From positions 726,748 to 790,747 of the forward strand of contig NZ_FNWL01000002.1 in NCBI RefSeq assembly GCF_900108095.1: a stretch of 64,000 bases of DNA. Reading direction: 5' to 3'. Numbering within the stretch: position 1 is the stretch's first letter; every line of letters begins with the position of its first letter. The position numbers and the translations under genes are program-made. Under the pieces are notes generated by a model, which did not search any database, was not told where the DNA came from, and saw nothing but the letters and a program-made list of their open reading frames with translations. Below are positions 4,181-39,809 of this stretch, piece after piece. The DNA is from Natronorubrum sediminis (lineage in GTDB: Archaea; Halobacteriota; Halobacteria; Halobacteriales; Natrialbaceae).

Positions 4181-5116
4181 TCAGAATCGACGGCGTCCGC
4201 CGGGGCCACCGGGGCCACCCGGACCGCCGGGGCCGCCACCGCCGAGTTGCAGTTGGCTCGGAGCCCGAATGTTCTGCGTTCGCTTGACGTACTCGCCGTA
4301 GGCGAGGCCGATGACGAGTCCGACGAGGTGAGCCATGTGCGCGATTCCGCCGCCGCCTCCTGCGCCAGTTCCGATGAACAACACGCTGATGAGCGCCGTC
4401 AATCCGGTCAGGATCCAGATCGGCATCGGGATCATGAACATGAGGTAGACCGTCAGGTTCGGGTTCAGTACCGTAATGACGCCCATGATCGCGAGTGCGG
4501 CACCGCTGGCACCGAGAACGGGGGTCACTCCGCCCTCTACTGCGGTGAGACCGATCTGGCTGAGTCCGGCGAGTGCGCCTGCACCGATGAACAGTACTGC
4601 GAACGACTTCGAACCGACGTACCGTTCGACGAGCGGTCCGAAGAAGAAAATCACGATGCTATTGAAGATGATGTGGAAGAAGTTGGCGGTGCTGTGAGCG
4701 AAAATCGAGGTTACCCACGTCCAGACGTACTCCGGGTTGAGCGGTGAGAGCGTAAAGAGCGCGTTATGGAGTGCCGGCCCACCGATCAACAACGAAATGT
4801 ACTGCAGGAGGAACGTGATCCACATTATCGCGAGGAACGTGTAGGTCATGTTCCCGCGGAAGTAGGCGAGTGGCCCGCCGACTCCCGTGTCGATGGGGAT
4901 CTTCTCCATCACACTCGAGGCCCGCGATGTACTTCCCCCGCCGTTGACGCTCTCGTCGAACCCGCTGTCGAAGACGGCGTTCGGGTCGTTCCAGTTCTGC
5001 AGCCCCGTACAGTCGTGGTTCTCCGGGAGTCTGTGTTCCCCACAGTACGTCCCCCCGCAGTGCCGACAGTTGTAGGGCATGCTTTCGTCTTTCCCACACA
5101 CGTCGCACGTGGCCAT
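4181..5116 (-). CDS. rhomboid-family intramembrane serine protease with AN1-type zinc finger
   Basis: A membrane protease expected to cleave transmembrane proteins within the lipid bilayer. Residues 1-40 form an AN1-like zinc finger (Cys 4, 7, 17, 20, 25, His 28, 34, Cys 36). An acidic linker of about 40 residues follows, then six or seven membrane segments. The rhomboid signatures are HIIFN (148-152), the catalytic serine S204 in GASGAAL, and the catalytic histidine in IAHMAHLVG (H263). The tail is a Gly-Pro-Gly repeat ending in Arg-Arg-Arg-Phe. The zinc-finger/rhomboid fusion is common in haloarchaea. The gene precedes endonuclease V on the same strand. Physiological substrates are unknown. 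Confidence 0.93.
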   Translation of the reverse strand: MATCDVCGKDESMPYNCRHCGGTYCGEHRLPENHDCTGLQNWNDPNAVFDSGFDESVNGGGSTSRASSVMEKIPIDTGVGGPLAYFRGNMTYTFLAIMWITFLLQYISLLIGGPALHNALFTLSPLNPEYVWTWVTSIFAHSTANFFHIIFNSIVIFFFGPLVERYVGSKSFAVLFIGAGALAGLSQIGLTAVEGGVTPVLGASGAALAIMGVITVLNPNLTVYLMFMIPMPIWILTGLTALISVLFIGTGAGGGGGIAHMAHLVGLVIGLAYGEYVKRTQNIRAPSQLQLGGGGPGGPGGPGGPGGRRRF

Positions 5117-5261
5117 TGCGCGGGGATATGTGTGGCACCGCTAAGGGATTTGGGGTTTGTATTCATTGGCGATAGATCCCGCCTCACTACAGAGATAATG
5201 TCTTTTAAATAATATAAGGTAGTGTGAATTGAGCGTCTGTGGACTACGACGTCAACTGTAA

Positions 5262-6161
5262 CTAAACAATATCATCAAAATCAGGAATGTCAACATTTAT
5301 AATCCGCCCCGGTGCATCGTCATCACACGCGCCGATAGCATCGTGAGTACAAATTGTTTTTGCGAGGTCATCACCGCAACCGCTTGCAGCGTCGGCAATT
5401 CTGCAGACGCCAGCCACGAATGTTGCACAGCCGATTCCACCGACGACCGTAATCCCCAGGACACCACAGGCGAAACCACCGGCTGCACCACAAAGGTAGC
5501 GACAAGTCAGTCGCGCTATCTCATAACAGCTATTACATCCAGTAATATCCCATTCGGTCGGGAAGTCACTGGGTACGTCGACAAACTGTGTCGAGACGGT
5601 GTTATCGTCGAAAGCAGCAGAGAACTGTGCAAATACCGCTGGATCAACCTCGTGCGTTGTCAACTTGATGCCTTCTTCCGGCGTTGTTTTCCCTTCTTGG
5701 GTTCGCTCTACGTCGGTAGCTGCTTCGAACCGTTCGATTTCGGTTAATACACCGTCGGAGTTGGTATGGTAGTAGTCAAGTTGTGCGAATTCGACTGCTG
5801 ATGTCTTTAGATCACGCGCGATAATAATCGCAGCATCAACCCCCTCATCGGTATCAAGGAGATCGTAACTAACCACTTCTCGTTTGAAGTCATCGTTCTC
5901 AACTCGAGCAGCGTCGATGTTCGTAGCCGACAGGACGATTCGCTGTCCCCGTTCTTCCGCTTTTCTTGCTAATGAACCGTACTGTTCTGTCTGTTCTAGC
6001 TCTCGAGCGACCGATCTTTTATTGCCACCTTCGAGGATCGTAATCGGATCATCCTCGTCTCCTTCGAGTGCCGCCGCTGACACCGATATCGATGCTATCG
6101 AACTAACTCCCACGCCGATACTTTTCAGCATACTTCGCCTGTCTGGTTTCTTTCTAACCAT
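5262..6161 (-). CDS. halocin C8-like bacteriocin precursor (Tat-exported, ten-cysteine C-terminal peptide)
   Basis: A 299-residue precursor with three parts. Residues 1-32 are a twin-arginine signal (PDRRSMLKSIG, then a hydrophobic stretch). Residues about 35-204 are an acidic domain without any Cys. Residues about 205-299 carry ten Cys at 209, 212, 220, 224, 232, 245, 253, 262, 271 and 279. The start of this part, WDITGCNSC, and the stretches CGAAGGFACG and GCGDDLAK match mature halocin C8 as I remember it (76 residues, DITGC start, ten Cys, Cys spacings differing only by one and two residues). In halocin C8 the N-terminal part of the precursor is the self-immunity protein HalI; the same division here is inference. 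A 20-residue acidic tail after the last Cys is unlike C8. The gene lies in AT-rich DNA, suggesting transfer. Confidence 0.85.
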   Translation of the reverse strand: MVRKKPDRRSMLKSIGVGVSSIASISVSAAALEGDEDDPITILEGGNKRSVARELEQTEQYGSLARKAEERGQRIVLSATNIDAARVENDDFKREVVSYDLLDTDEGVDAAIIIARDLKTSAVEFAQLDYYHTNSDGVLTEIERFEAATDVERTQEGKTTPEEGIKLTTHEVDPAVFAQFSAAFDDNTVSTQFVDVPSDFPTEWDITGCNSCYEIARLTCRYLCGAAGGFACGVLGITVVGGIGCATFVAGVCRIADAASGCGDDLAKTICTHDAIGACDDDAPGRIINVDIPDFDDIV

Positions 6162-6192
6162 ACATTAGAATATATTAGAGAATACAATTTGA

Positions 6193-6198
6193 ATTATA
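6193..6198 (-). promoter_or_regulatory. candidate TATA box of the halocin-like gene
   Basis: On the minus strand the sequence reads TATAAT about 32-37 bases before the ATG at 6161. It is placed to give a very short leader. The surrounding DNA is AT-rich, so other TATA-like matches are possible. Confidence 0.4.
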
Positions 6199-6511
6199 GT
6201 ATGTAGGGCATAGTTTCTTGTATACAAATATTTATAAATAAGTTTCATTGGGCCCTTAATATATTCGAACCCGGATTAAGTATGAATTTTTGATATTTCA
6301 CTAATGATGGTGTTCCAGTATGAGAAGGTCATACCAACCTGAGTAACCAGACTAATATGTACGTCTGATCAGGATCGATATTTCTCCACCAAAGTAGATA
6401 GTTATCTTATATACATCTCTCAAAATCCCATTTCTTTCTATCAAATATATCCTTCTATACTCTAACACTATTTATCGTAAAATACTTAGGTTTATCTAAT
6501 AATATACAAGT
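6199..6511. other. AT-rich intergenic DNA of the halocin island
   Basis: No gene is recognised here. The stretch is markedly poorer in G+C than the flanking chromosome and contains runs such as AATATTTATAAATAAG. It separates the halocin-like gene from a divergent small membrane protein and probably holds both promoters. Confidence 0.5.
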
Positions 6512-6733
6512 ATGAGAAATGCCGTTAGAGTGTACGGATCGATGTTCGTACTGATCTCTGGATTAATCTGCATGGCACTAACTGTTGCCTTGTTCATTTC
6601 TCCATCGGGATTGATAGATAGAATAGGTATTGGCGGATTTGCAGTGTATGCGTTCTGGACCATAATTGTTTGCATACTCTCACTTTTGTATGATCTCCCA
6701 AAAAATGCGATGGGAGCGTTCAACCGTTCGTGA
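6512..6733 (+). CDS. small two-helix membrane protein (73 aa), unknown function
   Basis: A 73-residue hydrophobic protein with two predicted membrane segments: residues about 9-29 (MFVLISGLICMALTVALFI) and about 41-61 (GFAVYAFWTIIVCILSLLY). A short polar loop lies between them and a polar C-terminus follows. It is divergent from the halocin-like gene and lies in the same low-GC island. A TTTATC element about 35-40 bases before the ATG could be its TATA box. Small membrane proteins beside bacteriocin genes often give immunity or help export, but nothing in this sequence proves that role. An antisense frame of similar length is open here but lacks a protein-like pattern. Confidence 0.5.
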   Translation: MRNAVRVYGSMFVLISGLICMALTVALFISPSGLIDRIGIGGFAVYAFWTIIVCILSLLYDLPKNAMGAFNRS

Positions 6734-6824
6734 TTGTCTTTTTCATCCCATAGTACGACACACGATTGATTATTGTCGCTTAGGGTGCCCCAGACCGTGA
6801 CCAAGCCGCACTGGGGATTGAGAG

Positions 6825-7058
6825 TTACGCTTCGGAAGTTGTTGTTTTTGTCCGCCGACGAAGACCAAGGTAGTATCCTATTCCGATAATAATACCCATT
6901 CCGAGACTCCCTATAATACCCGTGAATGAAACCCCATCAAGGATGAATTCCAATACGAGGAGCACCATAGAAACGGCCAGTGCTACGAAAGTTGCACTGG
7001 TTTCGATCGATATTTCACCACTGTATCCAGTTGGAATGTTCACCATATTCTCATTCAT
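6825..7058 (-). CDS. small two-helix membrane protein (about 77 aa), unknown function
   Basis: Two strong hydrophobic segments (ATFVALAVSMVLLVLEFIL and about 20 residues starting FTGIIGSLGMGIIIG) are followed by a basic, Arg/Lys-rich tail (LRRRTKTTT). This topology would leave the tail in the cytoplasm. The frame is open back to an ATG at 7118, but that start would leave no room for a promoter, while AAAATACTT at 7065-7073 could serve the inner Met at 7058 or 7046. Like its neighbour it sits in the AT-rich island between the halocin-like gene and the repair genes, which makes it a second candidate for a bacteriocin accessory protein. No family is recognised. Confidence 0.5.
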   Translation of the reverse strand: MNENMVNIPTGYSGEISIETSATFVALAVSMVLLVLEFILDGVSFTGIIGSLGMGIIIGIGYYLGLRRRTKTTTSEA

Positions 7059-7208
7059 ATCGCGAAAATACTTAGATACCTCGAATGCAGCAATATGTTC
7101 CCATAGATATGAATACAAATATTTTCTTGGAAGAGTGCCGTAGTCATCGCATTCGAGTCAAACGCGACGCTAGCCACATTTTTGATAATTGAGAACTTAC
7201 TCCGTACT

Positions 7209-13385: not shown

Positions 13386-14546
13386 TTAGAAATCGGTTTC
13401 ACTCGGCCGTTCCTCGAGTGTGAGTTCGACCGTTTCCTCGTCTCCGTCTCGGAGGACGTCGATCGTAATCGTCTCGTCGGGTTCCGTCTCGAGTGCCAGC
13501 GTGGAGGAGAGTCGTTCTTGTGAGGGAATTTCGGTGTCGTCGATCGCGACGATGACGTCACCGTCGACGGGAACGGGGACGCCGTCGACGGTGGGACCGG
13601 GCTCCGCTGTTTCGAAAACATCGGCGGCAGGCCCGTCCGACACCGTCCCGACGACCATGACGCCGCGTGCGTCCTCGAGGTCGTTCGCCTCGGCGACGAT
13701 CGGACTGACGGGGGCGACGCTCACGCCGAGATACGGGTGATCGTAGGAACCGTCCTCGAGGAGAGACGGCACGACTCGATTCGCGAGCGCGGCGGAGATT
13801 GCAAAACCGATCGTCTGGCCCGCACCGGCGAAGACGACGCCCACGGCGTCGCCCGAGAGGTCGACGAGCGGGCCGCCGCTGTTTCCGGGGTTGACCGGTG
13901 CGTCCGTCTGAATCGCCGCCGGAATGGAAAACCCAGTTGGGCTCGGCAGCGAGCGATTGACGCCGCTGACGATCCCCTGGGAAATCGACGCGTCGAGACC
14001 GAGTGGGTTCCCGAGTGCGAGGACCTCCTCGCCGACCGTCGGCTCGTCTTCGGCGAGCGTGATCCCCTCAGTTTCCTCGGGGAGATCGTCGACCTCGAGC
14101 GCGGCGAGGTCGCTGTGAATATCTGTTCCGACGACGTCGGCCGTTCGCCACTGCTCGTCACGAAACTGGAGTTCGACCGTTTCGGCCTCGCGGACAACGT
14201 GGTGGTTCGTGACGACAGCGTCGTCGACGACGAATCCCGAACCGATTCCAGCGGGTGTTTCGGGGCCGTCACCCTCTGGTACACCCGGTTCGTCGTCGAG
14301 GCCACCGAAGACGTTGACGAGGACGACGTCGTCGATGTACTCGTCGTATACGTCTGCAGGGGTGTTCTCGGTGTCGCCGTCGTCCTGCGTGACACTCGAG
14401 GCGACCGCGGTGGAGTGTTGCTCGGAGATACTCGATGCTGCAGCGCCGGTTCCACTGCCCGCAGCGACTCCGAGAAGAGTTACGCTAACGCCTCCACAGC
14501 GTTTCAGTACCTGGCGACGAGCAAGCCGCGACTGATCTGACGACAT
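13386..14546 (-). CDS. HtrA/DegP-like S1C serine protease with PDZ domain, Tat-exported
   Basis: An exported trypsin-like protease. Residues 1-40 are a twin-arginine signal (LARRQVLKRCGG, then a hydrophobic run). The protease domain shows the catalytic His in VVTNHHVV, Asp in HSDLAALEV and Ser in NPGNSGGPLVDL. A C-terminal PDZ domain (about 290-386) contains YLGVSV and DVIVAIDDTEIPS. The role would be quality control of exported proteins outside the membrane. The start at 14546 is chosen because an AATAAAAC TATA box lies 25-32 bases upstream and the signal begins there. A longer frame from 14633 would be built only from the tandem repeats. Confidence 0.94.
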   Translation of the reverse strand: MSSDQSRLARRQVLKRCGGVSVTLLGVAAGSGTGAAASSISEQHSTAVASSVTQDDGDTENTPADVYDEYIDDVVLVNVFGGLDDEPGVPEGDGPETPAGIGSGFVVDDAVVTNHHVVREAETVELQFRDEQWRTADVVGTDIHSDLAALEVDDLPEETEGITLAEDEPTVGEEVLALGNPLGLDASISQGIVSGVNRSLPSPTGFSIPAAIQTDAPVNPGNSGGPLVDLSGDAVGVVFAGAGQTIGFAISAALANRVVPSLLEDGSYDHPYLGVSVAPVSPIVAEANDLEDARGVMVVGTVSDGPAADVFETAEPGPTVDGVPVPVDGDVIVAIDDTEIPSQERLSSTLALETEPDETITIDVLRDGDEETVELTLEERPSETDF

Positions 14547-14570
14547 GCCGCGTTCCTCCCCGGGGAGCGG

Positions 14571-14578
14571 AATAAAAC
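14571..14578 (-). promoter_or_regulatory. TATA box of the htrA-like gene
   Basis: Reads GTTTTATT on the minus strand, 25-32 bases before the ATG at 14546. The tandem repeat array starts directly behind it. Confidence 0.6.
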
Positions 14579-14584
14579 GCGCCC

Positions 14585-14656
14585 CGGCACAGGCACCCTT
14601 GGGGAGTTCGGCACAGGTTCCCTTGGGAAGCACGGCACAGGTTCACATGGGTAGGT
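14585..14656. repeat. three tandem 24-bp repeats with inner dyad symmetry
   Basis: Three units start CGGCACAGG at 14585, 14609 and 14633. The middle of unit 2 is TTCCC-TT-GGGAA, a dyad; unit 1 has ACCCTTGGGG and unit 3 has ACATGGGT. They lie right upstream of the htrA TATA box and between divergent genes, so operator or activator sites are likely. Confidence 0.8.
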
Positions 14657-36884: not shown

Positions 36885-39809
36885 TCACTCGGTGAAGGTG
36901 ATCCAGCCCTCTGGCGCGTGCGATTTCACGTCGTTCATCGCTTCGCGGGCGTCCGTGCGGTTCTCGTAGTGTTGGGTGCTCTCGGCCATCGTCGCGCCGT
37001 ACTCGTCGACCAGCTGCCAGACCCAGCCGTCGTCCGCTGTGTGGAGTTCGAAGGAGACGCTGTCGATCTCGAGGATGCTCGCTTCCTCGATCAGCGGGCG
37101 GACGTCCTCGAGTGCGCCTCGAGCGGCCTCGCTCGACTCGTGTGTCTCTGCGGCGGTGGCGATCGTTCGACCGTCCTCGTCGATGAGCCGCCAGCGCCAG
37201 TGGTCTTCGTCGTCGGCCACGAGTTCGAACGACGCGACGTCGAAGTCGACGCGACCGGCTTTCGGTGCGAGTTGTCGAACGTCTTCGACGTTTCCGAGGA
37301 CCGCATCTTTGGACGAGGCAGTGTCGACTGCACTCGCGCTCACGTCGCGGTCGGTGTCGACGAGTTCCCACGTCCAGTCCTCGCTGCCGTCCAGACGAAT
37401 TACCGCGTCTTCGATCGTGAAGATCGGTGCATCGCCAGCATGGGATTTGAGACCCTCAGCAGCGTCTTTCGCAGCCACTCGAGAGTCGTAGGTGACGGTC
37501 GAATCGGCGATTTCCTCGCGGTCACGATCGAGCAGTCGCCAGCTCCAGCCGCCGTTGTCGTACAACTGTACGGCGACGTCGCCGACCGCGTGGCGGTGTG
37601 CCGATGCGGCCGACTCTCGAACGTCCCCGAGACTGTCGACGAGTTCGTCTCGAGTCGGATGTGCTTCGCCTCCTTCCGCGACGGTTTCGCCCGACGGCAA
37701 GACGAATCGCCAGTGCCACTCGTCTTCGGCATACGTCTGGAAGATCGCCCGGTCCATCGTTCGAATGTCGGACTCGAGGTGCTCGAGCAAGCGATTCATC
37801 GCCTGCCGGGCAGCGCCCCGCGTCGGGTGCGTTGCTGGATCCTCGGCGACGAGTTTGCCAGCTTCGTCGATCAGCCGCCAGCCCCACTCGTCGTCTTCGT
37901 TGACGAACAGTTCGAACGCGGCGGTCTCGATTTCCAGTAACTCGGCGTCGGGTGCCTGCTCTTTGAGCGTCATCATCGCCTCTGCGGCTTCGCCTCGAGA
38001 GGTGTGCTCTTGGCCGCTGTCTGCGAGGACGTTGCCGTCTTCGTCGATGAGCCGCCAGCGCCACTCGCCGGAGTCGGCTTCGTAGACCTGGAACGCCGCG
38101 TGTTCGAATTCGATGAGGTCCGCCTCACTGGCCTGCTCGCGAACGCGGCGAATCGCATCGGCCGCCGTGTTCGCGTTCGGATGCGGTTCGGTACTTCCGG
38201 CGACGATCTCGCGGTCGTCCGTCACGAGCCGCCAGTGCCAATTCGGTCCGGTCTCGTCGTTGTACTCGAGCGTCGTTCCGCCGTCGGTCTGGGCTGTCGG
38301 TTCCTCCTCGACGGTCGTCGGAAGGTCGTCTCCCGGTTCGTCGGGCGTGGTCGTGGACGCTGCGGGGTAGACCTCGTACTCCGCAGCGTCGATCTCGACC
38401 GTCTCGGCCTCGAGCGCCTGCGCGCTGAACTCGTCGGCACTCGATTCGACTGGCGAACGTTCGGTAATATCGGTCGGGTTTCGGGCGACGACGTGTTCGG
38501 TTTCGTCGACGAGTCGCCAGCGCCACGTCGAGCCGGATTCGTACAGTTCGTAGGTTGCTTCGCCGGCGACGGTGACCGACGCCGAATCGAGTTCGGGCAA
38601 GAGCGCTTCGGACGCCTCTTCGGCGTCACGGCGCGTATCGAAGCTGTCGGAGGCGTTGGCGACGACCTCGTCCGCGTCGTCGACGAATCGCCACGTCCAC
38701 GTCTCCTCGCTCTCGAGCAGTTCGACGCCGACGTGTTCGATGTCGAGCACGCGTGCGCGGTCGAAGCGTTCGGCGAACGTCTGGGCGGCCTCCTCGGCAC
38801 GTTCCTGGGATTCGTAGCGATCCTCGCTCGAGGCCAGTGGTGTTCGGTCGTCGTCGACGAGTTGCCAGACCCACTGATCTCGATCTTCGGCGTACGTGAA
38901 CGCGGCTCCCTCGATTTCGATAACGTCGGCATCCGGGCCGCGGTCTTTGAGGAAACTTACGGAGTTTTCGGCGCCATCGCGCTCGTCGAATTCGCCGGTG
39001 CTCGAGCCGACGACGCTCCCGTCGTCGCGTGCGAGCGTCCACTGCCAGTTGCCCTCGCGATCCTCGAACAGTCGGAACGCGGACGTCGTGAGTTCCATCA
39101 GCCCTGCGGAGCTAATCTGGGACTGGACGCGTTCGATGCTCTCCGTCGCATCTGGTCGCGTAACCGCGCTCTCGTCGCTCGTCGCGAGCGCCTCGAGGTG
39201 AAGGACGTTCCACTGCCAGTCGCCGTTTTCGTCGCGGAAGACGGCGAACTGTGCACCTTCCATCGCATCGCCGGTCAGAATCTCCGGATCGTCGGTCTCT
39301 TTTTCGTCGACGAACATCCCTTTTCGCCCGGTGAGAATCGGTACGAGCGCGGTAACGCCTGCGATCAGGCCGACACCGGCCGTGTAGACGGCAATAACCT
39401 GGACGCTGTAGTCCGTTCCGAGTTCCCGCCAATTGTTGGGATACGCCCACCCGAAAAAGACGACGCCAGCCAACGCGACCAGTAGCCCGATAGCACTCAC
39501 GTAAATCCCGATTCGCCTGACCGGCAACATGAGGACGATGCCGAACAGACAAAACGCCAGTCCGGTCGCCGCCGTGACTCCCGACGCACGAATGAGCGTG
39601 TAGGAATCACCAGCCCCACCGTAGCTGATGATGAACGCCACGAGCCCCGCACCACCGAGTACGTAGCCGAAAATGAACAGCCAGTACCCGTACACGTCAG
39701 TACTCGAGTCGGGTTCGCCGACGTAGTGTTCATACAGCCGAAACAGCTTTTGATTGACCCCACTTGTCGATGCATTTACAAACTTGAACTGATAAGTGAA
39801 ACCCACCAT
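36885..39809 (-). CDS. giant membrane protein with 13 DUF1508-like (YegP) modules
   Basis: A 974-residue protein. The N-terminal 170 residues hold four membrane helices (about 40-62, 72-95, 100-120, 140-160) with a short cytoplasmic lead. From about 185 to the end run 13 modules of 50-70 residues. Each contains a WxW pair: DWQWNVL, NWQWTLA, QWVWQLV, TWTWRFV, TWRWRLV, NWHWRLV, EWRWRLI, EWGWRLI, EWHWRFV, GWSWRLL, DWTWELV, HWRWRLI and GWVWQLV. The modules fit DUF1508/YegP-type units, usually found once or twice per protein. The role is unknown; the array would be cytoplasmic or external, depending on topology. The gene stands alone after a 257-bp AT-rich gap. Confidence 0.87.
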   Translation of the reverse strand: MVGFTYQFKFVNASTSGVNQKLFRLYEHYVGEPDSSTDVYGYWLFIFGYVLGGAGLVAFIISYGGAGDSYTLIRASGVTAATGLAFCLFGIVLMLPVRRIGIYVSAIGLLVALAGVVFFGWAYPNNWRELGTDYSVQVIAVYTAGVGLIAGVTALVPILTGRKGMFVDEKETDDPEILTGDAMEGAQFAVFRDENGDWQWNVLHLEALATSDESAVTRPDATESIERVQSQISSAGLMELTTSAFRLFEDREGNWQWTLARDDGSVVGSSTGEFDERDGAENSVSFLKDRGPDADVIEIEGAAFTYAEDRDQWVWQLVDDDRTPLASSEDRYESQERAEEAAQTFAERFDRARVLDIEHVGVELLESEETWTWRFVDDADEVVANASDSFDTRRDAEEASEALLPELDSASVTVAGEATYELYESGSTWRWRLVDETEHVVARNPTDITERSPVESSADEFSAQALEAETVEIDAAEYEVYPAASTTTPDEPGDDLPTTVEEEPTAQTDGGTTLEYNDETGPNWHWRLVTDDREIVAGSTEPHPNANTAADAIRRVREQASEADLIEFEHAAFQVYEADSGEWRWRLIDEDGNVLADSGQEHTSRGEAAEAMMTLKEQAPDAELLEIETAAFELFVNEDDEWGWRLIDEAGKLVAEDPATHPTRGAARQAMNRLLEHLESDIRTMDRAIFQTYAEDEWHWRFVLPSGETVAEGGEAHPTRDELVDSLGDVRESAASAHRHAVGDVAVQLYDNGGWSWRLLDRDREEIADSTVTYDSRVAAKDAAEGLKSHAGDAPIFTIEDAVIRLDGSEDWTWELVDTDRDVSASAVDTASSKDAVLGNVEDVRQLAPKAGRVDFDVASFELVADDEDHWRWRLIDEDGRTIATAAETHESSEAARGALEDVRPLIEEASILEIDSVSFELHTADDGWVWQLVDEYGATMAESTQHYENRTDAREAMNDVKSHAPEGWITFTE

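Follow-up and report, generated by a model that had tools for sequence, protein, structure and literature searches.

A halocin C8-type precursor gene and two small partner genes in an acquired cassette of Natronorubrum sediminis

Halocin C8 is described as the best-characterised halocin. It comprises 76 residues (PMC11509114), and its protease is unidentified (PMC12893001). According to its title, the study of Sun et al. (2005) assigns C8 production and immunity to a single gene, and the title of Mei et al. (2008) describes a helix-loop-helix motif of the immunity protein HalI as essential for immunity. The locus described here belongs to Natronorubrum sediminis, and was analyzed within a window of 64,000 nucleotides (contig NZ_FNWL01000002.1, positions 726,748 to 790,747). 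It encodes a C8-type precursor together with two small proteins, termed div and down (Table 1).

The precursor and its place in the halocin C8 family

The precursor ORF starts with an ATG codon. Its ten Cys are found at residues 209, 212, 220, 224, 232, 245, 253, 262, 271, and 279, with spacings of 3, 8, 4, 8, 13, 8, 9, 9, and 8, while residues 1-208 are devoid of Cys. Both this spacing and a mature start reading WDITGCNSC had been proposed in an original prediction made from the letters of the sequence, and they are recovered on the ORF. The twin Arg at residues 8-9 (DRRSMLK) matches the NRRxVLK motif of relatives in the alignment and marks a putative signal. Pfam analysis reports a hit with PF22862, the Halocin 8-like N-terminal domain, covering the entire profile from position 1 to 106 (E 2.8e-27, 95.8 bits for a cut-off of 27 bits). 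NCBIfam reports a second hit, with the halocin C8 domain TIGR04449 (36.7 bits for a curated cut-off of 24 bits, E 6.5e-9, residues 209-274), and residues 205-279 are hydrophobic (GRAVY 0.8). The twin Arg, PF22862, and TIGR04449 are in line with the overall plan given in the prediction, namely a Tat signal, a Cys-free N-terminal part, and a Cys-rich C-terminal part. The canonical precursor of Natrinema altunense AJ2 (L105), which ends at its last Cys and has a predicted mature part of 76 residues, carries the C8 spacing (3, 8, 4, 8, 14, 8, 9, 9, and 6) and the DIDITGCSAC start that had likewise been given in the prediction. It aligns with the window precursor from the Tat motif through the ninth Cys, the alignment check that had been proposed, with 38% identity.

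The closest relative found is a protein of Halorussus amylolyticus, with 48% identity over the full length including the tail, and plasmid-encoded relatives share 39% identity over 98% of the window precursor. Across 34-35 relatives, nine Cys are invariant and one is nearly invariant. About a dozen precursors have in common a spacing of the 13-and-8 type and a tail of 16-17 residues, ending with II(N/D)VDIPxF or close variants; the tail of the window precursor, 20 residues long, contains the clade core RIINVDIPDF followed by DDIV. In a maximum-likelihood tree of 49 precursors, the window precursor is the deepest branch within this tailed clade (support 100/99), and the clade as a whole is sister to canonical C8 (support 97/90). 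The two curated models matched independently over their cut-offs, the pairwise alignment including the Cys region, the conserved Cys, and the tree together support membership of the halocin C8-like family, as originally predicted, with a match beyond chance; the family was already known, and the gene adds a new member to it. Given its conservation within the tailed clade and the position of the window precursor in the tree, the tail is an inherited trait of the sister clade and not a local oddity. The original prediction, in which the tail was called unlike C8, is revised on this point, as the tail is shared with the precursor's own clade.

AlphaFold2 yields a confident model of the N-terminal domain, with a helix-loop-helix at residues 45-70 (pLDDT ~95) that fits the motif named in the title of Mei et al. 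(2008). The mature part is modelled as four helices with low confidence (pLDDT 64). Foldseek analysis of the precursor model returned no hit at E < 0.001, the best second-look matches (Z ~6) being divided among cystatin-like, StART-like, and barrel folds. The precursor sequence did not return any convincing relative in the PDB, nor any phage family in PHROGs. A single-protein query with the precursor did not return related loci among the genome contigs and viral contigs, while an alignment query did match genomes.

Two observations concern other members of the family. Plasmid pHl5678-1 of Haloferax larsenii NCIM 5678 encodes a tailed C8-type precursor (L064, 5001-5933); this strain is listed as the producer of the 13 kDa halocin HA3 (PMC11509114), and its tailed precursor could be the gene for halocin HA3. 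In another C8-like clade (L066:5359-5736, L123:5554-5931, L075:5553-5915), a conserved neighbour of 120-125 residues with four predicted membrane helices is located directly downstream; the L066 copy did not return any Pfam family.

Table 1. Features of the halocin C8-type locus, in window positions.
Feature	Positions	Strand	Basis
Inserted cassette, ~2.05 kb, absent from nine congeneric genomes	5161..7208		Comparison with congeners
Halocin C8-type precursor, 299 aa, tailed clade	5262..6161	-	Pfam/NCBIfam matches, alignment, tree
Acidic C-terminal tail, residues 280-299, RIINVDIPDFDDIV at end; final four residues extra here	5265..5324	-	Alignment; conserved in clade
Cys-rich peptide with ten Cys, predicted mature form, residues 203-279 (77 aa)	5325..5555	-	TIGR04449; alignment to 76-aa mature C8; cleavage site placed by alignment
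HalI-like domain, PF22862, residues 42-147; predicted helix-loop-helix 45-70, then antiparallel sheet	5721..6038	-	Pfam; AlphaFold2 pLDDT ~90
Putative Tat-type signal region, residues 1-31 (RR 8-9, hydrophobic stretch, SAAA)	6069..6161	-	Sequence; alignment with relatives; low pLDDT at 10-35
AT-rich (29% GC) promoter region separating the divergent precursor and div genes	6162..6511		Shared TATA-like/AAATATTTGTATWC stretches, weak
div, 73 aa; two membrane helices predicted, at 11-29 and 38-56	6512..6733	+	Haloferax larsenii homologue; family A1; hydropathy
down, 77 aa (73 aa with the ATG at 7046 as start); two membrane helices predicted	6825..7058	-	Family A2; hydropathy

The inserted cassette and its partner genes

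In nine out of nine other genomes of the genus examined, the rhomboid gene (4181-5116) directly adjoins the DUF5788 gene (from ~7209), which defines the empty site. DNA identity to the nearest relative is 95% up to position 5160 and resumes at 92% from position ~7218; the segment between these flanks measures 2,057 bp in the window and 205 bp in the relative. The GC content is 29-50% within the cassette, as compared with 61-66% in the flanking genes. The cassette is a recent, strain-specific acquisition, and it contains exactly three genes, the precursor, div, and down, no integrase or transposase being seen among its ORFs. The low-GC island of the original prediction is thus real and corresponds to an insertion, although the two conserved partner genes inside it had been missed. 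Scans of the DNA for sigma-70 promoters and terminators returned counts near chance.

The neighbouring rhomboid protease was considered as a maturation enzyme and rejected, as it is kept at the same place in congeners devoid of the halocin. Elsewhere in the window, a protein recognized by eye as an HtrA-like trypsin-fold protease with a twin-Arg signal is encoded 7 kb off the cassette (13386-14633, minus strand). Positions 36885-39809 (minus strand) encode a 974-residue protein whose N-terminus is of the membrane type and which contains many W-x-WRLV-type repeats in tandem, DUF1508-like by eye.

No Pfam or NCBIfam model fits div or down. In Haloferax larsenii, the ORF that lies upstream of the tailed precursor and diverges from it is 47% identical to div, and the down family A2 includes the 66-70 residue ORF found directly downstream of other tailed precursors. 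With iterated profiles, all of the canonical C8 loci examined return both families. Complete canonical loci are arranged in the order halC8, winged-helix regulator, div, a 534-residue membrane protein, and down. Both families are also present, in shuffled order, at the Halobacterium/Haloferax plasmid loci. Since gene order varies between lineages, the linkage goes beyond the inheritance of one arrangement. Among 391 class genomes, 13 of the 14 strong down matches lie less than 5 kb from a precursor, for a chance expectation of ~4.5e-4 per gene, bearing in mind that the genomes are not independent. Among 72,556 plasmids, div and down each match 13 records, and these coincide exactly with the 13 records in which a tailed precursor spans 80% or more of the query. 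Three Halorussus-type genomes contain a tailed precursor and neither partner gene. In one genome, a div and down pair (L146:4695-5210) has no precursor nearby, and a canonical C8 locus is found elsewhere in the same genome.

Retention of div after toxin loss and possible roles of the partners

Strong matches to div amount to 27, 12 being near a precursor and 15 being orphans. The C8 site of Natrinema/Haloterrigena, flanked by an AI-2E-type transporter on one side and a DUF5518/MacB pair on the other, holds the complete cluster in five loci. In two others (L112 and L122), the halocin gene is broken and the regulator is gone, while div, the permease-like gene, and down are intact, and in four more (L144, L147, L149, and L154), div alone is left. 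These loci form a natural series of decay, the toxin being lost and one partner kept. Pairwise dN/dS values of div are mostly 0.1-0.5, including comparisons of orphan with linked copies; one very close orphan pair, with few changes, reaches 1.3. In Halobacterium R1 (L062:5037-5798), the precursor is shortened to 253 residues with six of the ten Cys left and ISH30 just downstream, and both div and down remain intact beside it. Retention of div without the toxin is the behaviour expected of an immunity gene. Separately, the tailed precursor of Halobacterium GN101 (L061:4980-5927) is interrupted by an in-frame stop codon immediately ahead of the twin-Arg motif.

Wider relatives of div (L156-L159, L109:7843-8527, L063:2872-3762) are found in an operon-like block with a 131-residue membrane protein of three helices and a 65-residue HTH protein. 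Because this block usually occurs without a halocin gene, div may have a general membrane role. Div could also be older than the halocin cluster at the Natrinema site and, in view of its wider family, may have an older native role.

We consider it probable that the locus as a whole represents an acquired antagonism cassette of the halocin C8 type, encoding a Tat-exported and self-protected proprotein, and that div is the likeliest candidate for an additional immunity protein. The more specific proposal is that div is a second immunity factor, kept by non-producers as an orphan resistance gene, and that down completes a mobile three-gene toxin module; it is tentative, and we rate it at somewhat less than an even chance. 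Were div such a factor, the accepted single-gene model of halocin C8 production and immunity would be incomplete.

A competing possibility, less than even but deserving weight, retains the same halocin precursor but leaves immunity to the HalI domain alone, div and down serving in secretion, processing, or sensing, for example as a membrane adaptor with the 534-residue permease-like protein of canonical loci. It draws on the large membrane protein and the ABC-type permease that are also found near canonical loci, and on the title of Sun et al. (2005): if a single gene provides C8 production and immunity, as this title states, div may be dispensable. However, div alone persists at the same Natrinema/Haloterrigena site when the C8 gene is absent there, so that a secretion role would have no substrate at that site, and orphan copies of div elsewhere also speak against such a role. 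The Cys-rich domain might otherwise be a surface or signalling peptide built on the C8 scaffold and devoid of antimicrobial activity. TIGR04449 is indeed wide and diverse. It occurs in 42 of the 391 class genomes, its many divergent forms include some with other Cys patterns, and its members need not all be halocins; to our knowledge, only C8 and its close relatives have been characterized within it. The window protein, however, falls in the clade that is the nearest sister to C8 proper, and it has the HalI-like domain and the partner genes in common with C8, which makes this reading unlikely. Quite improbable as well is that the gene is a decayed or silent relic, a family member by its sequence whose product is no longer made or active. 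The DNA is accessory, strain-specific, and of low GC, the GN101 and R1 relatives are visibly damaged, and truncated C8 genes exist, but the window gene combines an intact ORF, a signal, all ten Cys, intact partners, and an AT-rich promoter region.

Proposed mechanism and comparison with known systems

Returning to the antagonism cassette with div as an additional immunity protein, we infer export, cleavage, disulphide formation, killing, and immunity by analogy. The precursor would fold in the cytoplasm and leave by the Tat route; the genome encodes TatC. The HalI-like N-terminal domain would sequester or neutralize the C-terminal peptide and thereby protect the producer. The original suggestion that one gene may provide both toxin and protection fits the presence of this domain. 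An extracellular protease would then cut ~6 residues ahead of the first Cys; the genome returns three or four subtilase matches. The freed peptide, of 77-97 residues, would be helical and hydrophobic, presumably with five disulphides, and would damage the envelope and lyse related haloarchaea, an effect reported for C8 (PMC6759562). Div would most likely be an additional immunity protein embedded in the membrane, which can be kept without the toxin, and down most likely an accessory of the producer, for immunity or secretion. With the tailed sister clade, the two partner families, and the decay series, immunity, resistance, and mobility of archaeal antimicrobials become directly testable in laboratory haloarchaea. 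Besse et al. (2017) on the distribution of halC8 aside, the literature consulted does not describe the tailed sister clade, the minimal mobile form with three genes, or div and down with their orphan retention, all of which may be new.

Other halocin systems provide a partial parallel. Those of halocin H4 with the halolysin HlyR4 and of HFX_0892 likewise involve an inactive secreted precursor activated by an extracellular serine protease (PMC12893001), although no match of precursor family is claimed between them and the window. Among the closest known systems is canonical halocin C8 (ProC8/HalI) of Natrinema and Haloterrigena (Sun et al. 2005; UniProt P83716), which has the same Tat-type signal, PF22862 domain, ten-Cys TIGR04449 peptide, and overall length, and whose loci also carry the div and down families. 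In contrast, the window precursor is 38% identical to it, exhibits spacings of 13 and 8 where C8 has 14 and 6, and extends into a 20-residue acidic tail where canonical C8 ends at the last Cys, while the cassette is devoid of the wHTH regulator and of the 534-residue permease-like gene. The tailed relatives, found on Halobacterium megaplasmids and in Haloferax larsenii (NCIM 5678 and JCM 13917), Halorussus amylolyticus, Haloterrigena salina, and Natrinema thermotolerans, belong to the same clade as the window precursor, with identical or near-identical Cys spacing, a tail motif around VDIPxF, and often the same two partner genes. They differ from it by their identity of 39-50% and by another gene order, the window precursor being the deepest branch of the tailed clade and carrying four extra tail residues.
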